Assembly: GCA_021734255.1 (NCBI GenBank)
Contig: JAIPJM010000001.1
Coordinates: 62,001-126,000 of the forward strand
Reading direction: 5' to 3'
Source of the DNA: Fidelibacterota bacterium
GTDB lineage: Bacteria; Fidelibacterota; UBA8477; JABMPR01
Length of the DNA: 64,000 nucleotides
This document shows, piece after piece, positions 26,687 to 41,411 of this stretch. The notes under the pieces are model-generated. The model made no database searches. It had not been told where the DNA came from and saw only the letters and a program-made list of their open reading frames with translations. Position 1 is the stretch's first letter. The number at the start of each line of letters is the position of its first letter. Made by a program: the position numbers and the translations under genes.

Positions 26687-26706
26687 ATATTCACAAGTTA
26701 TCAACA
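26687..26706. promoter_or_regulatory. DnaA-box-like pair upstream of dnaA
   Basis: ATATTCACA (26687-26695, one mismatch to TTATTCACA) and TTATCAACA (26698-26706) lie 15-34 bases before the dnaA start. The second is identical to two boxes in the candidate origin at 39.7-40.0 kb. The position fits DnaA autoregulation. Confidence 0.5.
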
Positions 26707-30830: not shown

Positions 30831-32712
30831 CGCTGTTTCACGTGAAACCTATGATATCATCGTCGTCGGTGGTGGTCACGCCGGGATAGAGGCGGCCTTG
30901 GCTGCTAGCCGCTTACAAAAGCGGACCCTGTTGATCACAATGAAGATCGATGCCTTGGGGCGAGCATCCTGCAACCCCGCCATCGGCGGGCTGGCTAAAG
31001 GCCACCTGGTTAGAGAAATAGATGCCCTGGGGGGCGAAATGGCCAGGGCGACCGATGCCACAGGGATTCAATTCAAGATGTTAAACCGCTCAAAGGGTCG
31101 TGCTGTCTGGTCCCCGCGTGCTCAGATCGACAAACACGCTTACAGTGCCTACATGAAGGTCGTCTGCGAAGAACAGCCCGGGCTCTCACTTTATGAAGAT
31201 GAGGCCGTTGCAGTATTGACAGACCCGCCTGAAACAAAAATTGTCGGTGTTGAAACCAGAGATGGAACGGTTTTTAGTTGTGTAGCCCTTGTACTTACCA
31301 ATGGAACCTTCCTGAATGGTCTGATCCATATTGGGGATAAGAGTTTCTCCGCGGGTCGAATTGGTGAGTCAGCCAGTATCGGGATCACTGAATCACTGGT
31401 GAAGCTGGGTTTTGACACCGGCAGATTAAAAACAGGAACCCCTCCGAGGATCAAAAGAAGCAGTGTTGATTTTTCAAAAACCACCATCCAGGAGGGCGAC
31501 GAAACCCCTGAGCCGTTTTCTTTCACCACGAAAGATTTCAACCCGCCAAATGAAGCCTGTTATATCACCAAGACCAACCCGACAACCCACGACATTATTC
31601 AGGGCGCCATTGAGTTCTCCCCCCTCTTTTCGGGAAAGATCCAGGGGGTCGGTCCCCGCTACTGTCCCTCCATCGAGGATAAGGTGGTTCGCTTTTCCGA
31701 GAAGTCTTCCCACCAGCTATTTTTGGAGCCTGAGTGGACCGATGCTGAGCAGCTCTATGTAAACGGTTTTTCCTCCTCCCTGCCTGAAGAGGTACAGCTA
31801 GCCAGCTTGCGTTCGGTACCCGGCCTTGAAAAGGTTGAGTTCATTCGGCCCGGTTATGCCATCGAATATGATTTTTTCCCGCCATCACAACTAAAGGCAA
31901 GCCTTGAGACCAAACGTGTCTCAGGTCTTTTCTTCGCCGGACAGATCAATGGGACCAGCGGTTACGAAGAGGCAGCAGGCCAGGGATTGATGGCAGGTAT
32001 TAATGCCTCGCTTCGGGTTGATGGTAAGGATCCCTTTATCTTAAAGCGGAGCGAAGCTTATCTGGGCGTTCTGGTTGACGACCTGATCACAAAAGACACA
32101 GACGAACCCTACCGCATGTTCACCTCAAGAGCGGAACACCGCCTGTTGTTGCGATACGACAACGCCCACTTTAGGCTTTCACAGAAAGGCTTTGGGCTTG
32201 GTCTGGTGTCTAGCGATACCTATCAGGCCGTGGCTGAGGATATGGCAACCACCGAGAAAGCTGAAGCCTTCTTGGAGAAAACCTATATCAGGGCTGTCGA
32301 CCTTGAGTCGCTTGGCCTGGAGCAGACCACATCAAAAGACTCTTACTCGCTGGCAAACCTGCTGCGCATGCCCAGGGTTGAAGTTGAGCACTTAAAACCC
32401 CTTTTGCCCGACTGGTTTTCCTCAATTAAACCGTCCCTGTTAAGCCTGATCGCAACCAATAGTAAATATCGGGGCTATATTGAGCGCGAACAGCTACAGG
32501 TTGAGCGGCTATCTCGACATCAAAACACGGCTATTCCACCGCAAATTGATTATATGTCCATCCAGGCCATTTCGGTTGAGGCGAGACAAAAACTGCAGCG
32601 GATACAGCCAGAAACCATTGGCCAGGCGTCACGGATAAGTGGGGTCAGCCCTGCAGACGTATCGGTTCTCCTGATTATCATAAAGAAGATTGTTTCACGT
32701 GAAACATCCTGA
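30817..32712 (+). CDS. mnmG: tRNA uridine-5-carboxymethylaminomethyl synthase MnmG
   Basis: MnmG (GidA) is the FAD partner of MnmE in U34 modification. IIVVGGGHAGIEAA (about 14-27) is the dinucleotide-binding loop; CNPAIGGLAKGHLVREIDALGG, FLNGLIHIG and GTSGYEEAAGQG are strongly conserved. I chose GTG 30817 (AGG five bases upstream, 631 residues) because the open frame upstream is antisense to family expectation and lies inside mnmE. Codons 6-11 lie on a parS-like site, and a second one covers the last codons. Confidence 0.97.
   Translation: MSENSAVSRETYDIIVVGGGHAGIEAALAASRLQKRTLLITMKIDALGRASCNPAIGGLAKGHLVREIDALGGEMARATDATGIQFKMLNRSKGRAVWSPRAQIDKHAYSAYMKVVCEEQPGLSLYEDEAVAVLTDPPETKIVGVETRDGTVFSCVALVLTNGTFLNGLIHIGDKSFSAGRIGESASIGITESLVKLGFDTGRLKTGTPPRIKRSSVDFSKTTIQEGDETPEPFSFTTKDFNPPNEACYITKTNPTTHDIIQGAIEFSPLFSGKIQGVGPRYCPSIEDKVVRFSEKSSHQLFLEPEWTDAEQLYVNGFSSSLPEEVQLASLRSVPGLEKVEFIRPGYAIEYDFFPPSQLKASLETKRVSGLFFAGQINGTSGYEEAAGQGLMAGINASLRVDGKDPFILKRSEAYLGVLVDDLITKDTDEPYRMFTSRAEHRLLLRYDNAHFRLSQKGFGLGLVSSDTYQAVAEDMATTEKAEAFLEKTYIRAVDLESLGLEQTTSKDSYSLANLLRMPRVEVEHLKPLLPDWFSSIKPSLLSLIATNSKYRGYIEREQLQVERLSRHQNTAIPPQIDYMSIQAISVEARQKLQRIQPETIGQASRISGVSPADVSVLLIIIKKIVSRETS
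30834..30849. promoter_or_regulatory. parS: parS-like site at the start of mnmG
   Basis: TGTTTCACGTGAAACC matches 15 of 16 bases of the ParB-binding consensus TGTTTCACGTGAAACA. It lies within codons 6-11 of mnmG and just after the mnmE stop. Confidence 0.85.
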
Positions 32713-35700
32713 CTTTAATGCCGTCATCTCCCGCCTCTACCCCCTGGATGCGGACACTGGCGGTGTTGAGTTGCCGCTGGTTCCGCTTTTAGCTACCGCT
32801 TCATATAGGCAACAACCCCTGTTGCTTGCCGTGCCTGACAAGTCGTCTGCTGAGCGGGTTTTTTCGGATCTGGTGGCTCTGTCGACAGATATCGAGGTGC
32901 ATTTTATAGGTTATAGTCTCATCAGTGGTGTTGATGATGGCCAGGCGACTCGGGCCTTACGCTTACTCTTAGAGGACGTGCCAGGCATTTACCTTACAAT
33001 CGCATCAGACATGCTTGGCGGGTTTCGGCGGGAGGCCCTGGATTTTAATGAATATCATGTCGGCAAACAGTATGTCATGCAGGACGTTGAGGCCTCGTTG
33101 GATGCGTTTGGGTTTGAACGTGTTTCATTTGTTGTTGAACCGGGAACCTTTTCTGTTCGTGGTGGCATTCTGGATGTGTTTCCCGGTGAACAGGAAGCGC
33201 CCTTGCGTATGGATTTTCTGGGAAATATGCTGGAGTCAATGCATGCTTTTGATCCAGGCTCGCAGAGGTCTGGTGTATCCCTGGATCATGTTAGGATATA
33301 TACGAGAAACCCCTATGACACCGAATCAACCAGCTTGCTTCTCGATTTTATACCCTCCCGGTGCTCAATTTTTCACTTCCGGCCACAGTTGGAAGATTCT
33401 CCTTCTGCATCTCTGGCTGACCAGCTCCTGCGAGATCGGCGCAGGGGTACTGTCATGCTTTACCAGGCAAGGGGGGTTGATCCATCGTTTTCAGTTGAAG
33501 TTCAGCCTGAGTTTCACAGGAATCTTGCCGCTTTTCGGGCGCGCCTCTCCTTTCTGAATGAAAACAACTATCAGGTTTTTCTGTGTGCAGACAGTCCTGT
33601 ACAGCTTGATCGTCTAGGGGTTTTGTTTAAGGGGGCCACATTCTCCGGCCTGCCTCTTTCCCTCGCTTCTGGTTTCATCGATCACAACAACAAGCTAGCC
33701 GTATTAACCGACCATCAGATCTTCGGGCGGGGTAGAAAACGAAATGTTATTGCGCGACGATTTCCCGTTAAGCCGGCGACCAGCATTGAGGCTTTTGATG
33801 AGGGTGACGTGGTTGTACACCTGGACTTTGGTGTCGGAAAATATCTCGGCGTTGAGCGTATTCCGTTTAAACAAGGGCATAAAGAGGTCCTGACTCTAGA
33901 ATACGAGCTGGGTGATCGTATATATGTGCCCGTTGATAAAATGAATCGGGTGCACAAGTATGAATCGCATGTCGACCAGCCATCCAAGCTCACGCGATTG
34001 CGCACAACCGAGTGGGAGCAGGCCAAACTCAAGACCAAAAATGCTGTCGACACCTATACAAAAGAGTTAATGGAGCTCTATGCTAATCGTTTTGTGGCTG
34101 CCGGCCATGCGTTCGGTGAAGATGACGAGCTCCAACAGAAGATGGAGGCTGCGTTCGTTTATGACGAAACCAGTGACCAGCTTCAGGCTATTGCTGAGAT
34201 CAAGAAGGATATGCAGTCGCCGTTCCCCATGGACCGTCTGCTCTGTGGTGATGTGGGCTTCGGGAAAACTGAAGTGGCCATGCGGGCCAGCTTTAAAGCG
34301 GTTTCGAATTCACGCCAGGTCGGTGTTTTGGTACCGACAACCATTCTGGCACAACAACACCTTGAGACCTTTTCTGATCGCTTCAAGGACTTTCCCGTAA
34401 GCATCGGGCTCTTGTCCCGGTTTCGCACCAGCAAACAGATTCGTGAGACCCTGGCACAGCTGGAGGCTGGTGAGATCGATATCGTTGTTGGCACTCACCG
34501 GCTGTTATCACAAGATGTTGTTTTTAAATCACTTGGGTTGCTTATTATTGATGAGGAACACCGCTTTGGGGTAAAACACAAAGAGCGGATCAAGGAAATG
34601 ATGACTGCCGTTGACTCCTTATCAATGACGGCCACACCTATCCCCCGCACACTACAGATGTCTCTTATGGGCGCTCGTGATATCTCCACATTGAAAGTGC
34701 CACCAAAGGAGCGACAACCGATTGAAACCCATGTCATTCATTTTGATGAAAAAGTGATCCGGTCGGCGATCCTGCGCGAGGTTGATCGGGGCGGGCAGGT
34801 CTTTTTTGTACATAACCGCGTCGAGTCTATTGGTGTTGTCCTGAGTAAACTTCAGGTGTTGTTACCGGAAGTCAAGTTTGGTGTGGGTCATGGACAGATG
34901 GCTCCACGTGAGCTTGAGCGGGTCATGTTGGGCTTTTTTCACCGAGAGTTTGACGTCTTGCTCTCCACAACCATTGTTGAGTCCGGGCTTGATATACCAA
35001 ATGCCAACACCATGATTGTGAACCGTGCTGATGCCATGGGTTTGTCTCAGCTCTACCAACTGCGCGGTCGCGTCGGTCGTTCTTCCAGAAAGGCCTGGTC
35101 CTATTTTATTACACCCGGGTTTAATCGTTTGAGCGTGACGGCCAGCAGGCGCTTAAACGCGCTTGAGCGGCATGCGCACTATGGCGGTGGGTACGAACTG
35201 GCAATGCGCGACCTGGAGATCAGAGGTTCGGGAAATATCTTTGGGACAGATCAGAGTGGACACATCTCAAACATTGGCTACCATCTGTACACGAAAATGT
35301 TGCAGGAAACCCTGGAACTGCTCCGCGCTGGCGAAGACGAGACAGTACAGACATATCCGCAACCTGAGATAAGCACCGATCGTTCGGCGGGTATACCGCG
35401 AGAATATATCGATGATACCGCTGAGCGAATTGCTGTTTATCGCCGTATTTCGGGTGCCGAGAACAGTACCGACCTGGGCGATCTTCGCAACGAGCTTCGG
35501 GAGCGCTTTGGGGTGCTACCCCGGGAGGTATCCGATCTGCTGGATATCTCACTAATCAAACATTTTGGCCAGGCTCTCGGGCTTGAGCGCCTCAGCATTA
35601 AAGAAAAAAGAGGGCAGGGAGACTTTTTTCAAAAACACGTGGAACAAGCAGGTTCTGTCATCATTAAAAGTTTGTCAAAATCGATGCAAGATTTTGACTC

Positions 35701-35872: not shown

Positions 35873-37588
35873 ATGTTCCGACTAAGAAATGCGACCGTAC
35901 TTCTGCTGCTTATCAGTGTGTTCTTTTCCTGTACGTCACTGGATGATTCCACGCTTGCCGTACTTGACGGCGAGATGATTCCACTGGAAGATTTCACAGC
36001 TGTAACCCCTGCTTCTCGATTTGTTGATAAGAGCAACGATGATATTGATGCTGTTGTTGATGATTTCCTTAAACGCGAACTTTTTGTGCATGCCGCTTTC
36101 GAGCGTGGATATGAAAAAGATTCGCTTGTGGCTGAAAGATTAAAAACAACGCAGCGTGGTATTATGATGCAGTACGTCTTCGAAAAGGCGATCCTGGGTT
36201 CAGTTCTCAATGATGATGTTCTGAGGGAAATGTATGACCGTGCAGGTGTCGAGGTGAAAGCGCGACATATCCTGCTGCAGTTTGATGGCGTTGCCCGCTC
36301 TCAATCAACAAGAAGTAAGGCGGAGGCGGTTCGTCTTATGGAAGACATTAAAAAGCGGGTTGCCACCGGTGAGTCTTTTGAAGCGCTTGCCGAGGAATTG
36401 TCAGAAGGTCCTTCTGCTTCAAGCGGTGGTGATCTGGGGTGGTTCGGCTGGGGCAGAATGGTCGGTCCCTTTCAGGAGGCAGCCTTTGCTTTAAAGCCCG
36501 GTGAGTTATCTGGTGTTGTAGAGACAATGTTCGGTCTTCACCTTATAAAGGTTGAAGATCGTCGCGAGATGAACCGGGGGTCTTTTGAAGAAGAAAAACC
36601 GCGTTTGATGCAGCAGGCCAGAAAAGCCATGGAGGGTGAGATCCGGATGAAGGCTGACGGGTTTGTCGCCAACATTAAAAAGGAAGCTGGATTCGAGCTA
36701 TACAAGGACAATATCAGTGTCTTTATTAAAGTTTATAACGGATCCGATCTTCAGAACAAGCCTCTGGATGTTGTGCTTGAATCATTGACTTTTGCCCCGC
36801 CACTTCTGACGCTGAATGGCGAAGAGAAGAATTACCGCTGGGTGCTTGATCAACTAAGGGCCATACCTAAAGCACAGCGGCCGGTCTTCAGTTCTGAAAA
36901 TCACCTGATCAGCATCCTTGACCAGCTCGTGTTTCAGAGCCTGGTAATCGATTATGGATATGCTCAGCAGTACGATCAGGATGAGGCATTCAAAGAAAAG
37001 ACTCGAGGTCTTGCGGAAAACCTGGTCTATAGCACATTTATGGAAAAGGAAGTAACCAATCAGGCCCAGCCTTCTGATGAGGATCTGAAGTCCTATTATG
37101 AGAAACACAAAAAAGATAAATATCTGGACAAACAGAAGGTAAGCGTGAAGGAAATATTTGTAAAAGACAGTCTCTTGGCTGTTGACTTGAAAAAACGTCT
37201 GAATGCTGGTGAGGAGATCGGTTTTCTGGCGAGTCGTTTTTCTGAGAGGAAGACAGGTAAAGACAATGAAGGAAGCCTCCCCCCTTTCCAGGAAGGTCGG
37301 TACGGGGAAATGGGTAAAGCAGCATTTACAATGCAGCCCGGCGATGTTTCAGAGCCGATCCAGCTCGGGAATGGTTACTCCATCATTCAGCTGGAAGAGA
37401 TTATCCCTGAACAACCGCGTCCCTTTGCCCGTGTGAAAAGCCGTATTAAGAACGAGCTTACAAATGACATGAGAAAGAGGCGCGGGGAAGAACTTTTTAA
37501 AGAACTGAAAAAGGAATTCTCTGTTAAGATCAACTATTCTGCTGTTCATGACTTTTATAATCAGGAGCTGAAAGCGGTCGAGGAATAA
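35873..37588 (+). CDS. Lipoprotein peptidyl-prolyl isomerase with two parvulin domains
   Basis: The 571-residue protein starts with a signal peptide ending in the lipobox VFFSC (C about 20), so it is lipid-anchored in the periplasm. A complete parvulin domain occupies about 120-230 (VKARHILLQFDG, GGDLGWFGWGRMVGPFQEAAFAL, GLHLIKVEDRR). A second, more divergent one lies at about 420-515 (KVSVKEIFVKD, GSLPPFQEGRYGEMGKAAFTM, GYSIIQLEEI). It should assist folding of exported proteins. It leads a three-gene parvulin cluster with four-base spacing to the next gene. Confidence 0.88.
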   Translation: MFRLRNATVLLLLISVFFSCTSLDDSTLAVLDGEMIPLEDFTAVTPASRFVDKSNDDIDAVVDDFLKRELFVHAAFERGYEKDSLVAERLKTTQRGIMMQYVFEKAILGSVLNDDVLREMYDRAGVEVKARHILLQFDGVARSQSTRSKAEAVRLMEDIKKRVATGESFEALAEELSEGPSASSGGDLGWFGWGRMVGPFQEAAFALKPGELSGVVETMFGLHLIKVEDRREMNRGSFEEEKPRLMQQARKAMEGEIRMKADGFVANIKKEAGFELYKDNISVFIKVYNGSDLQNKPLDVVLESLTFAPPLLTLNGEEKNYRWVLDQLRAIPKAQRPVFSSENHLISILDQLVFQSLVIDYGYAQQYDQDEAFKEKTRGLAENLVYSTFMEKEVTNQAQPSDEDLKSYYEKHKKDKYLDKQKVSVKEIFVKDSLLAVDLKKRLNAGEEIGFLASRFSERKTGKDNEGSLPPFQEGRYGEMGKAAFTMQPGDVSEPIQLGNGYSIIQLEEIIPEQPRPFARVKSRIKNELTNDMRKRRGEELFKELKKEFSVKINYSAVHDFYNQELKAVEE

Positions 37589-37591
37589 TTC

Positions 37592-38407
37592 ATGCGAAAA
37601 TTCTTCCTGGTCCTTTCCCCCATCCTGTTGCTTGTCGGCATACTGGCCTGTTCTGATAACAGGAGCGATTCGCTGATCGCAGAGGTGAATCACGAGCGAT
37701 TGTTTCTAGATGAGTTACGGTTGATGCACCCTGGTTTTATGCAGCTCGACAGTCTTCAGAAGTCACTTCTTGTTGAAAACTGGATAAGGGAAACCCTTCT
37801 GGCGCAGGAAGCAGAGAAGAATCTCATACATAAGGATCCCGTGTTCAATTATCGTGTCGATACTTACCGGCGCCGCATCCTGGCTGATAATCAACTGGAT
37901 GCCGTTTTGAAGCATCGTGGAAGTGTGACCCGGGCAGAAGTGGAAGCCTACTATAATGAGAATATTTCATCCTTTCAAAGACAGAGTAACGAGTTTTTCG
38001 GTTTCCATGTGCTCTTGGATTCTCGTGATGATGGCCGTGAGCTAGAGCGGGCTATCGAAAGAAATGACCTCGAAAAGAAACAGGCGCTGGTGGCAGACAG
38101 ACCAAAAGAGACCGGTCTATTCAAGGTGGAAAATTTGGTCCCAGAGGTGAAGGAATATCTGCTGAAACGAAAGCGGGCGGGTATTTTTGGACCCGTTAGA
38201 TCGGATCTCGGCTATCACCTGGTAGAAGTAAAAACCTGGTATGATAGGGGATCAACCAAAAGCCTAGATGAAGTCTGGGAGGAAATTGCCGCCCGCCTAT
38301 CGGTTAACCGCCAGAAGAATATTGAATTCATGCTGATAGATAGTTTAAGAAAAGAAGGTAGTATCTTCTTAAATAAAGAGGTTCTCTATGAGATATCTGA
38401 TCTCTAA
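37592..38407 (+). CDS. SurA/PpiC-related lipoprotein
   Basis: The 271-residue protein has a signal peptide with lipobox GILAC (C20) and a SurA-like N-terminal helical region (LIAEVNHERLFLDELRLMH; SLLVENWIRETLLAQEAEKN). The parvulin core appears degenerate: the usual HILL and GGDLGWF motifs are not visible, although a remnant (GIFGPVRSDLGYHLVEVKTW) remains near residues 193-213. It is likely a folding chaperone without strong isomerase activity. It overlaps surA by 20 bases. Confidence 0.75.
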   Translation: MRKFFLVLSPILLLVGILACSDNRSDSLIAEVNHERLFLDELRLMHPGFMQLDSLQKSLLVENWIRETLLAQEAEKNLIHKDPVFNYRVDTYRRRILADNQLDAVLKHRGSVTRAEVEAYYNENISSFQRQSNEFFGFHVLLDSRDDGRELERAIERNDLEKKQALVADRPKETGLFKVENLVPEVKEYLLKRKRAGIFGPVRSDLGYHLVEVKTWYDRGSTKSLDEVWEEIAARLSVNRQKNIEFMLIDSLRKEGSIFLNKEVLYEISDL

Positions 38408-39686
38408 ACATTCAAGGACCTCAACCGTCCTCTTCACCATTTTACTGTTTATTGGCAGTCTGCAGGCCCAGCAGTTGATCGATGGGGTCGCCGCTATTGT
38501 CGGCGAAAAAGCAATTCTTTATTCTGAGGTTGAGCAGGTAACCCAGTTGTTTGCCATGCAGTCAAGAATACCCTCATACTCCTCACCAGAGGTTATCCAG
38601 CAACTCCGCTCCCGTGCCCTTGAGGAGCTGTTGAATCAGCAGGTCTTATTGGAATATGCGCGTCAGGAAACGATTGAAGTCGAAGATCGGGCCGTTCAAA
38701 TGCAGCTGGATCAATCCCTGCAAAGTATTGAGATGCAGTACGGTAGTTTGAACAAGGCTGCTGAGGCTTTTGGTGTTGACCGTTTTAAAATAAAATCCTA
38801 CTACGAAGATCAGATACGCAATAATCTTCTGGTTGAACGGGTGAAGATGGAACTGTTCAGTGATATTAAGGTCAGCCGACGAGAGGTTGAAGATTTTTAC
38901 GAAACCTGGCAAGACAGCTTCCCTGATAAGAACCCACAGGTTGATTTTTCCATTCTCTCCCTCAATGTGGAAATCGGTGATGACGAGATGGAGCAGCTCA
39001 AACGCCAGTTAACGGATATAAAAAAGGATATTAAGGCCGGTACGCTCTCATTTGAGGATGCTGCCAAACAATATTCAAAAGACCCTGGTTCTGCGGCGAA
39101 TGGCGGCGATCTTGGATTTATAGGAAAAGGCGTCTTTGTTAAACCGTTCGAAGAGGCTGCTTTTGCCATGAAGCCTGGCACACTGAGTGGTCCTGTCGAA
39201 ACTCAATTTGGTATCCACCTCCTGAAACTCCACGAAAAAACGGATAATCAGGTTCATGTCTCTCATATTCTTCTTGTTCCGGAGGCAGACGAATCTGACC
39301 GTCAGCGTACGTCGGAGAAACTCCAGGCTATACGGGACCTGATCATCTCCGGTGATAGTACCTTTGTGGATATGGTCAATGCCTATGCCACTGACGATAT
39401 GGTAATCGCCCGTGACGGACGGATGGGGATGACTGATATTTCTCTTTTACCAGAGGACATACATGATCTCCTCTTAAATATTCCCCTGGAAAGCCTCTCT
39501 ATGCCAGTTTTCAGTGCTGATCAGTATCATATTATCAAGGTTCACGAGCGAACCCCAGGCGGTAAGGTGAACTTGGATGATCATTGGGCTGAAGTGGAGA
39601 CCATGGCAGTTGAATTTAAAAAACGGGATCGTTATGAATACTGGATCAATGATCAGCGCGCCAGGATGTATATCCAGATAAAATAG
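38388..39686 (+). CDS. surA: Periplasmic chaperone / peptidyl-prolyl isomerase SurA
   Basis: The 432-residue protein has an N-terminal signal peptide (ending QAQQ), the SurA chaperone segment (IDGVAAIVGEKAILYSEVEQ, residues about 32-51) and two parvulin domains. The first is canonical (QVDFSILSLN, GGDLGFIGKGVFVKPFEEAAFAM, GIHLLKLHEK). The second begins HVSHILLVPEADES. It escorts outer-membrane proteins. Third of three linked folding factors; its end borders the candidate origin. Confidence 0.9.
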   Translation: MRYLISKHSRTSTVLFTILLFIGSLQAQQLIDGVAAIVGEKAILYSEVEQVTQLFAMQSRIPSYSSPEVIQQLRSRALEELLNQQVLLEYARQETIEVEDRAVQMQLDQSLQSIEMQYGSLNKAAEAFGVDRFKIKSYYEDQIRNNLLVERVKMELFSDIKVSRREVEDFYETWQDSFPDKNPQVDFSILSLNVEIGDDEMEQLKRQLTDIKKDIKAGTLSFEDAAKQYSKDPGSAANGGDLGFIGKGVFVKPFEEAAFAMKPGTLSGPVETQFGIHLLKLHEKTDNQVHVSHILLVPEADESDRQRTSEKLQAIRDLIISGDSTFVDMVNAYATDDMVIARDGRMGMTDISLLPEDIHDLLLNIPLESLSMPVFSADQYHIIKVHERTPGGKVNLDDHWAEVETMAVEFKKRDRYEYWINDQRARMYIQIK

Positions 39687-40313
39687 TTTTTAGCTTAGGG
39701 TAGACTTATCAACAGGGTTTGTGGTGCGCTCTGGCGCCTTCCTCCTGTGTTTTTTTTGGATTTAAGCTATTTTTCATATATCTATTCTATTTATTCACAC
39801 ACCAGCTTATCGACATGGGTTAAATTTTAGCTTAAATAACAAGGCCTGTCAATAAGTACTTGCCTTTTTAACCTCCTATTAACCACTATCAACGTCAATT
39901 CGTAACTTACCAACAGATAAATAATTTATTTAAATCGCTGTAATTATTTTAATTAATACTATTTTACAATAAGTTATCAACATTATATTTCAACACTACA
40001 ACAGCTACTATTATTAATATACTATATAACTATTAGTATTATATGACCCCTCGGTCAGTGGGATGACGTGTTAGTATTCACCTTAAATCGATTTTCAGTA
40101 GTGAACAATAATGCACTCCAAGATTGGTTTTAAGCTCTGCTTTCAGAAAACTTTACAGGTATTGAGATATACTGTTTTAGACTCAATTTCAATATGAGCC
40201 ATCTTTTTTGTATGTGGGCTATTTTGTATTTTGTTAGAATTCTAATCTGGTCAAATTAATCGCAATTGAAGTCTGTAATACTAAGACAAACGAAATTGTG
40301 ATGAGGGCAATGA
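39687..40313. other. oriC: Candidate replication origin (oriC) region
   Basis: This 627-base gap has no gene. It holds DnaA-box-like 9-mers at 39706 (TTATCAACA), 39791 (TTATTCACA, exact consensus TTATNCACA), 39807 (TTATCGACA), 39847 (reverse, TTATTGACA), 39907 (TTACCAACA) and 39974 (TTATCAACA). The stretch 39916-40050 is almost entirely A/T with few G, like a duplex-unwinding element. TTAGAATTCTAA at 40234-40245 is a perfect 12-base palindrome near the next gene. The rest (40050-40230) shows nothing I recognise. Two parS sites lie 7-9 kb to the left. Origin call is by pattern only. Confidence 0.65.
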
Positions 40314-41411
40314 GTGAAATCTGAAACACGCCAAAAGTTACTTCAGATCGTCATGGTTATATTGACGATATATTTTTTCCTTCTGAGTATCAAATTACTC
40401 GGGCATAGCTTTAAACTGTTTGGAAAAGATTTTGCTGAAGCGATGCTCAGCACCACATCAGATCCATTTGCAGGCTTGATTATTGGGATTGTGGCTACAT
40501 CCTTAATTCAAAGTTCTTCAACAACCACATCGATTGTTGTAGGTCTGGTAGCAGGTGGTGTCGTGACCCTTGAAAATGCCATCCCAATTATTATGGGTGC
40601 CAATATAGGGACGACCGTCACGAACACACTCGTATCTTTAGGTCACATGGGTAGGCGTCTGGAATTTAAACGCGCTTTTGCTGCCGGTGTTGTCCATGAC
40701 TTTTACAATATTTTATCCGTGATAGTTTTATTTCCTTTAGAATTAAAGTTTCATATGATTCAAAAATCAGCTCTGTTTCTTGACAAACAGTTCGAAGGGG
40801 TTGGCGGTATGAAACTCTTTAATCCGCTAAAAGCAATTCTAGCTCCCGTTATTTCATTTATAGACAAACTTTTTGAAAACGTTCCGTATAATGACATTCT
40901 GCTAATGGTTATCTCTATCGTAACCATGTTCGTAGCCCTGGCATTTTTAATAAAAACGATCAGATCCCTGGTTCTCGATAAGATCGAAATCATCATAAAT
41001 AAATATCTATTCAAAAATGATTTTCTCGGTGTGATCTGGGGAGCAGGTATGACGTTTATCGTTCAGAGTAGCTCGGTAACAACGTCACTAATTGTTCCAC
41101 TGGCAGGTGCAGGTGTTGTGAATCTGAGGAAAATTTTCCCTTATACCCTGGGTGCGAATATAGGAACAACAGGTACAGCCCTGTTAGCAGCTCTGGCTAC
41201 TACTAACCCAGTTGCCGTTACTGCTGCTTTTGCACACCTGGTATTTAATATTTTTGGGATTGCGATATTTTATCCGCTGAAAGCAATCCCAATAGGATTA
41301 GCTGAAAGAATCAGTGAGTATGTATCAATTTCAAGACGGAATCTCATTATGTTTCTGGTGGGTTACTCTATGATATATTTCATACCAATTTTATTTATAA
41401 TTTTATTTTAA
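40314..41411 (+). CDS. Na/phosphate cotransporter family protein
   Basis: The 365-residue membrane protein has about nine hydrophobic segments and the duplicated PNaS-family signature: LIQSSSTTTSIVVGLVAGG with GANIGTTVTN (about 63-107), and again FIVQSSSVTTSLIVPLAGAG with GANIGTTGTA (about 247-290). These QSSS repeats bind Na+ and phosphate. Start is GTG 40314 with GAGGGC upstream. A PhoU-like gene follows 15 bases later, supporting phosphate transport. Confidence 0.9.
   Translation: MKSETRQKLLQIVMVILTIYFFLLSIKLLGHSFKLFGKDFAEAMLSTTSDPFAGLIIGIVATSLIQSSSTTTSIVVGLVAGGVVTLENAIPIIMGANIGTTVTNTLVSLGHMGRRLEFKRAFAAGVVHDFYNILSVIVLFPLELKFHMIQKSALFLDKQFEGVGGMKLFNPLKAILAPVISFIDKLFENVPYNDILLMVISIVTMFVALAFLIKTIRSLVLDKIEIIINKYLFKNDFLGVIWGAGMTFIVQSSSVTTSLIVPLAGAGVVNLRKIFPYTLGANIGTTGTALLAALATTNPVAVTAAFAHLVFNIFGIAIFYPLKAIPIGLAERISEYVSISRRNLIMFLVGYSMIYFIPILFIILF

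Follow-up and report, generated by a model that had tools for sequence, protein, structure and literature searches.

The conserved element downstream of surA in the window, the 64,000-nucleotide stretch of DNA analysed here, is highly likely to be the chromosomal replication origin (oriC), of an ordinary single-part, DnaA-dependent, basal-unwinding type, and comparison of sequences suggests that the same surA gap has very probably remained the origin throughout the phylum. The window belongs to contig C14 (230 kb) of a draft genome (G000; 2.87 Mb, 59 contigs, 91% complete) from an uncultured marine bacterium of the phylum Neomarinimicrobiota (SAR406). Its genes run from dnaA on the minus strand through rpmH (27040, plus strand), yidC, mnmE, mnmG, mfd and three peptidyl-prolyl isomerase genes, the last of which is surA-like, to the gap, a Na/phosphate cotransporter gene and a PhoU-like gene (Table 1). 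An earlier note on this DNA had placed a candidate oriC in a gene-free gap after surA, about 13 kb from dnaA and beyond the parS sites. The gap is indeed free of genes between the surA stop at 39686 and the next gene from 40314, the dnaA start (26672) and the first box of the gap are 13.0 kb apart, and an origin beyond the parS sites is supported by box conservation in relatives and by the corrected skew of three of them. Both parS sites fall between dnaA and the candidate origin, where they lie inside the mnmG and mfd reading frames or at the beginning of these.

Table 1. Features of the candidate origin and its surroundings (window coordinates).
Feature	Position	Strand	Remark
dnaA	25317..26672	-	TIGR00362, E 1e-155
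Box pair ATATTCACA/TTATCAACA adjoining dnaA (26687/26698)	26687..26706	+	probable autoregulatory site
parS-like site	30834..30849	.	one mismatch
parS site TGTTTCACGTGAAACA	32691..32706	.	exact
surA (peptidyl-prolyl isomerase)	38388..39686	+	constant left neighbour of the gap
Candidate oriC, entire conserved element	39705..40059	+	exact match of profile R1 (built from ten further congeneric genomes)
DnaA box TTATCAACA (box A)	39706..39714	+	at most one mismatch to TTATCCACA; TTATNNACA in relatives
Conserved T-rich element	39748..39757	+	TTGTTTTTT in relatives
DnaA box TTATTCACA	39791..39799	+	at most one mismatch to TTATCCACA; CTATNNACA in most relatives; next box 15-16 nt on
DnaA box TTATCGACA	39807..39815	+	at most one mismatch to TTATCCACA; perfect TTATCCACA in most relatives
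Weak DnaA box TTATTGACA	39847..39855	-	TGTTAACAAG block in relatives
Weak DnaA box TTACCAACA	39907..39915	+	ATATCAACA in relatives
DnaA box TTATCAACA, directed into the trio	39974..39982	+	at most one mismatch to TTATCCACA
DnaA-trio run CAA CAG (degenerate) CTA CTA TTA TTA	39999..40016	+	begins 16 nt past the box; in register with CTACCACTACTA of relatives
Probable unwinding element, 88% A+T	40005..40046	+	past the last box
Inverted repeat GACC-CCTC-GGTC	40045..40056	.	GAC(C/T)-N4-GGTC in relatives
TGAACAATAATGCA	40102..40115	.	in the place of the TGCA-N6-TGCA motif of relatives
Na/phosphate cotransporter	40314..41411	+	right neighbour of the gap in the window's genus only; dnaN outside the genus

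In an oriC, intergenic DNA is expected to hold DnaA boxes clustered beyond chance, and the surA gap holds four boxes within one mismatch of TTATCCACA, all on the plus strand, a number that 2000 dinucleotide shuffles of the 374-nt stretch never reached (mean 0.15). No denser box cluster is present across the 230-kb contig. Six box-like 9-mers, one of them exact, had previously been counted: four within one mismatch and two weaker ones were recovered, but TTATTCACA is exact for the looser consensus TTATNCACA only, and no perfect TTATCCACA was found within the window. Likewise, TTATCAACA is present at the three sites of interest that had been singled out (26698, 39706 and 39974), but the 9-mer is by itself unspecific since it also occurs at 36022, 53900 and 62874, making six occurrences in the window. 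The T-rich element always stands at the same point between the first and second box groups, and the gap of the sister family (L016, L018) contains a similar TTGTTTTTG.

The second expected feature is an A+T-rich unwinding element at one end of the box cluster; past the last box, 40007-40046 is 88% A+T and is probably this element, and the whole resembles the Bacillus subtilis-type basal unwinding system (BUS), in which the last box faces a CTA/TTA run (3'-GAT-5' on the other strand) by an A+T-rich stretch (PMC6669920, PMC8287927). Between the last box and the first CTA, ten relatives have a 16-nt spacer and one has 17 nt, and four repeats, mostly CTA, follow. In the general BUS pattern the spacer may measure at most 16 nt (PMC8287927); a box, a spacer within this limit and at least three DnaA-trios were found in the relatives apart from the single 17-nt case, their usual 16 nt being the published maximum. 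The window copy is weaker, with no perfect box and with its first two repeats degenerate: it keeps the trio register of the relatives, but the clean run starts 22 nt after the box, and the copy fits the 16-nt limit only if the two degenerate trios are counted. It further differs from the Bacillus subtilis-type BUS in having one strong box ahead of the trio, with no clear second tandem box, and in not adjoining dnaA. Directly past the A+T stretch lies the GAC(C/T)-N4-GGTC repeat, which every congeneric relative with a complete gap retains and to which an unknown origin protein may bind; as an origin-specific signal it was rejected, GACC-N4-GGTC being present 45 times in the own genome. An RNA element in the stretch was also rejected, with no Rfam match and a fold barely better than shuffles (z -1.3).

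Across 14 genomes of the genus (own genome included), the first 460 nt past surA, or less where a contig ended, contained 36 boxes with at most one mismatch compared with 2.6 in shuffles, and 11 perfect boxes compared with 0.1. The genus alignment shows conserved islands where the boxes lie, set in sequence that drifts; these are, in order, box A, the TTGTTTTTT element, a box pair 15-16 nt apart whose second member is a perfect TTATCCACA in most genomes, the TGTTAACAAG block, ATATCAACA and TTATCAACA, after which come ACTACCACTACTA or ACTACTACTACTA, an A+T stretch and GAC(C/T)-N4-GGTC. The constant core in relatives comprises the box, the 16-nt spacer, CTACCACTACTA or CTACTACTACTA, the A+T stretch and the GAC(C/T)-N4-GGTC repeat. 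In whole-genome scans, box, spacer and trio were found at the surA gap wherever this stretch was assembled, while nearly all other matches to the loose box-spacer-trio pattern were without the repeat. A profile (R1) made from sequence only, from ten congeneric genomes with the window excluded, matched 39705-40059 with an E value of 6.3e-22 in a search of the window, nearly the limits drawn in the earlier note. The second-best match in the window was the box pair adjoining dnaA, and the search of the 2.87-Mb genome returned no second match up to an E value of 10. In every genome of the genus with the gap assembled, the strong R1 match fell there. In two genomes (G018:C99 and G016:C75) the assembly breaks within the origin gap.

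Gene orientation switches between dnaA and rpmH, and the block from rpmH to surA would therefore be transcribed against the fork if the surA gap is the origin. This switch favours placing the origin in the dnaA-rpmH gap, the common place, with the surA gap as an accessory DnaA-binding locus of, for example, a DnaA-titrating or reactivating kind; such an arrangement is nonetheless unlikely. It agrees with the neutral skew of the window's own contig and with the presence of three or four boxes before dnaA in some families, namely f6 and f8. In the window's genus, however, the gap keeps only a box pair, ATATTMACA-AG-TTATCAACA, directly before dnaA, as had been noted for the window (26687/26698). 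This pair is common to the 14 genomes (own included), its first box varying slightly, and a promoter-like block before rpmH is common to the genomes reaching that far; no trio, no conserved A+T stretch and no further box cluster were found in the gap in this genus, the trio instead adjoining the surA boxes. The pair probably serves the control of dnaA by its own product. Four-box clusters before dnaA occur in family f6 near position 2788342 of G036 and near 107586 of G026:C41, besides the boxes after surA.

GC skew, whose switch is expected at an oriC, also bears on the choice between the two gaps. The raw cumulative skew minimum falls in the surA gap in G026 (0.3 kb past surA) and 2.1 kb past surA, 15 kb from dnaA, in the single-contig G036, around which sparse skew samples were, apart from some exceptions, mostly above zero on one arm and below it on the other. 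For G009, G028, G029 and the own contig, the raw minimum lies between dnaA and surA (at 32744 in the window, 7 kb from the surA gap), and the raw skew of these four did not separate the candidates. Because the rpmH to surA block is transcribed away from dnaA, a correction for gene strand was made by fitting skew from stretches of the genomes with gene strand and replication side, a fit which is approximate because its genes were open reading frames chosen by length. Only this fit separated the candidates, favouring the surA gap over dnaA by 22.7 (G029), 13.1 (G026) and 9.1 (G036) log units in the three relatives with a strong signal, which argues against an origin at dnaA-rpmH; G028 (+1.0) was undecided, as were the own contig (-1.0) and G009 (-0.25), where the signal is weak. 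Third-position skew was too noisy to use. The skew check called for in the earlier note thus does not point to an origin elsewhere: once corrected, it favours the surA gap in three relatives and is neutral for the contig on which the gap had been proposed.

With three or four boxes on the dnaA side in families f6 and f8, a helper role of these boxes is conceivable, and a two-part origin has accordingly to be weighed, in which the unwinding site would be at the surA gap and the boxes upstream of dnaA, 13 kb off, would act as a helper cluster via looping. Two conserved box groups do exist, the one before dnaA numbering up to four boxes in f6, and the known split origins of B. subtilis and H. pylori join two box clusters with dnaA as the usual spacer (PMC4285127). 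These known origins, however, span up to about 2 kb (PMC4285127), and the dnaA group of the window's genus is reduced to a mere pair of boxes, as autoregulation would predict; a two-part origin is accordingly quite improbable. A bolder form, a looped split origin with a 13-kb spacer in which an unknown origin protein of the lineage would also bind at GAC(C/T)-N4-GGTC, is improbable as well; if true, its halves would be several times farther apart than those of the split origins in the cited papers.

The position of the gap is conserved across relatives, as would be expected of an oriC. Outside the genus, whether in the same family (G019), in the same order (G020-G022) or in the other families, dnaN comes next after the surA gap, with recF, gyrB and gyrA beyond it where further genes were read (L072-L074, L177); dnaN was called by a Pfam beta-clamp match or its first residues, and recF, gyrB and gyrA by first residues only. 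Nearly all surA-dnaN gaps outside the genus carry boxes, from one to seven, many of them near-perfect; in family f3 the surA-gap boxes are eroded, and a CTA/TTA run in the reduced family f7 is closely preceded by a box that is perfect or nearly so. A strict search, which required at least four [CT][CT]A repeats 0-25 nt downstream of a box, recovered the site in G000 and G009 and nothing in families f3, f6 and f8, whose trios are shorter or follow weak boxes. Where both genes are on one contig, dnaA is read the other way and precedes the end of surA by 5-14 kb in most cases (about 52 kb in G052). Box conservation, a refuting point in the earlier note had it been absent, is strong in the genus alignment, the R1 profile and the gaps of the phylum, and the DnaA-trio and the dnaN neighbour of the relatives, both of which that note had missed, make the case for an origin much stronger.

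In the window's genus, dnaN, recF, gyrB and gyrA are located together elsewhere (G000:C21; also in G013 and G009). An origin that had moved along with dnaN was rejected, as the 4 kb before the relocated dnaN in the own genome contained no box with at most one mismatch. The dnaN block thus lies elsewhere without boxes and the surA gap retains them, so the origin-like sequence tracks surA rather than dnaN or dnaA. It is scarcely credible that the gap is no origin but a DnaA-controlled promoter of the downstream gene, for although it precedes dnaN in most families and dnaN can be DnaA-controlled in other bacteria, the boxes, spacer and trio were kept in the genus after dnaN had gone and a phosphate transporter gene had come to follow, and a promoter has no need of a DnaA-trio.

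With the surA gap as a single-part origin, it is proposed by analogy with the tested B. subtilis-type system that DnaA would bind the box array from 39706 to 39974, most of whose members face one way, that the last box would guide it onto the single-stranded trio repeats 16 nt on, and that DnaA would then open the A+T-rich stretch, where the helicase would be loaded. Passage of DnaA from boxes to the trio strand and opening of A+T DNA are known in other bacteria (PMC6669920, PMC8287927). The separation of the origin from dnaA is probably due to an ancient inversion, as gene order suggests. Early in the phylum, the block from dnaA and rpmH through mnmG and mfd to surA was probably flipped with respect to dnaN, one of the breakpoints falling between dnaA and the dnaA-dnaN gap; with the piece ending in dnaA turned round, that gap would have stayed by dnaN and surA would have been brought alongside. 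Later, in the window's genus, the dnaN-recF-gyrB-gyrA block would have left too, the origin remaining between surA and the phosphate transporter gene.

The kind of origin is known already, and its place after surA is apparently undescribed for the phylum; no description of a Marinimicrobia or SAR406 replication origin was found in the open-licence literature, where matches were judged by title. Cyanobacterial origins are usually beside dnaN and away from dnaA, and that of Synechococcus lividus is far from both (PMC7198777, PMC6323995). Most of the phylum likewise has its candidate origin by dnaN and not dnaA, and the window's genus resembles Synechococcus lividus, although the cyanobacterial box is TTTTCCACA as opposed to the TTATCCACA-like box here, and what separates the candidate origin from dnaA here is a short conserved block, surA being the constant neighbour. 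Gammaproteobacterial oriC, at gidA/mnmG (PMC6323995, PMC10225481), is similarly single-part and apart from dnaA, with mnmG in the general neighbourhood, but the present candidate lies after surA rather than beside mnmG. The surA gap offers a precise, testable origin for a widespread and almost wholly uncultured marine phylum, in which starting the chromosome map at dnaA would mislead by 13 kb. It also provides a natural experiment, in that first dnaA and later dnaN probably departed while the box-spacer-trio core remained, revealing which parts are held by selection and which gene neighbours are dispensable.

Further observations concern other genes. The relocated dnaN-recF-gyrB-gyrA block of the own genome occupies 8139-15266 of L176 (G000:C21:52000-70000). 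In G017 an extra 415-aa open reading frame lies between the gap and the phosphate transporter gene (L075, 632-1879 after surA). A second, weak DnaA-domain match (47.7 bits) was found in the own genome at G000:C28:197-499, in a 258-aa frame which is perhaps Hda-like.
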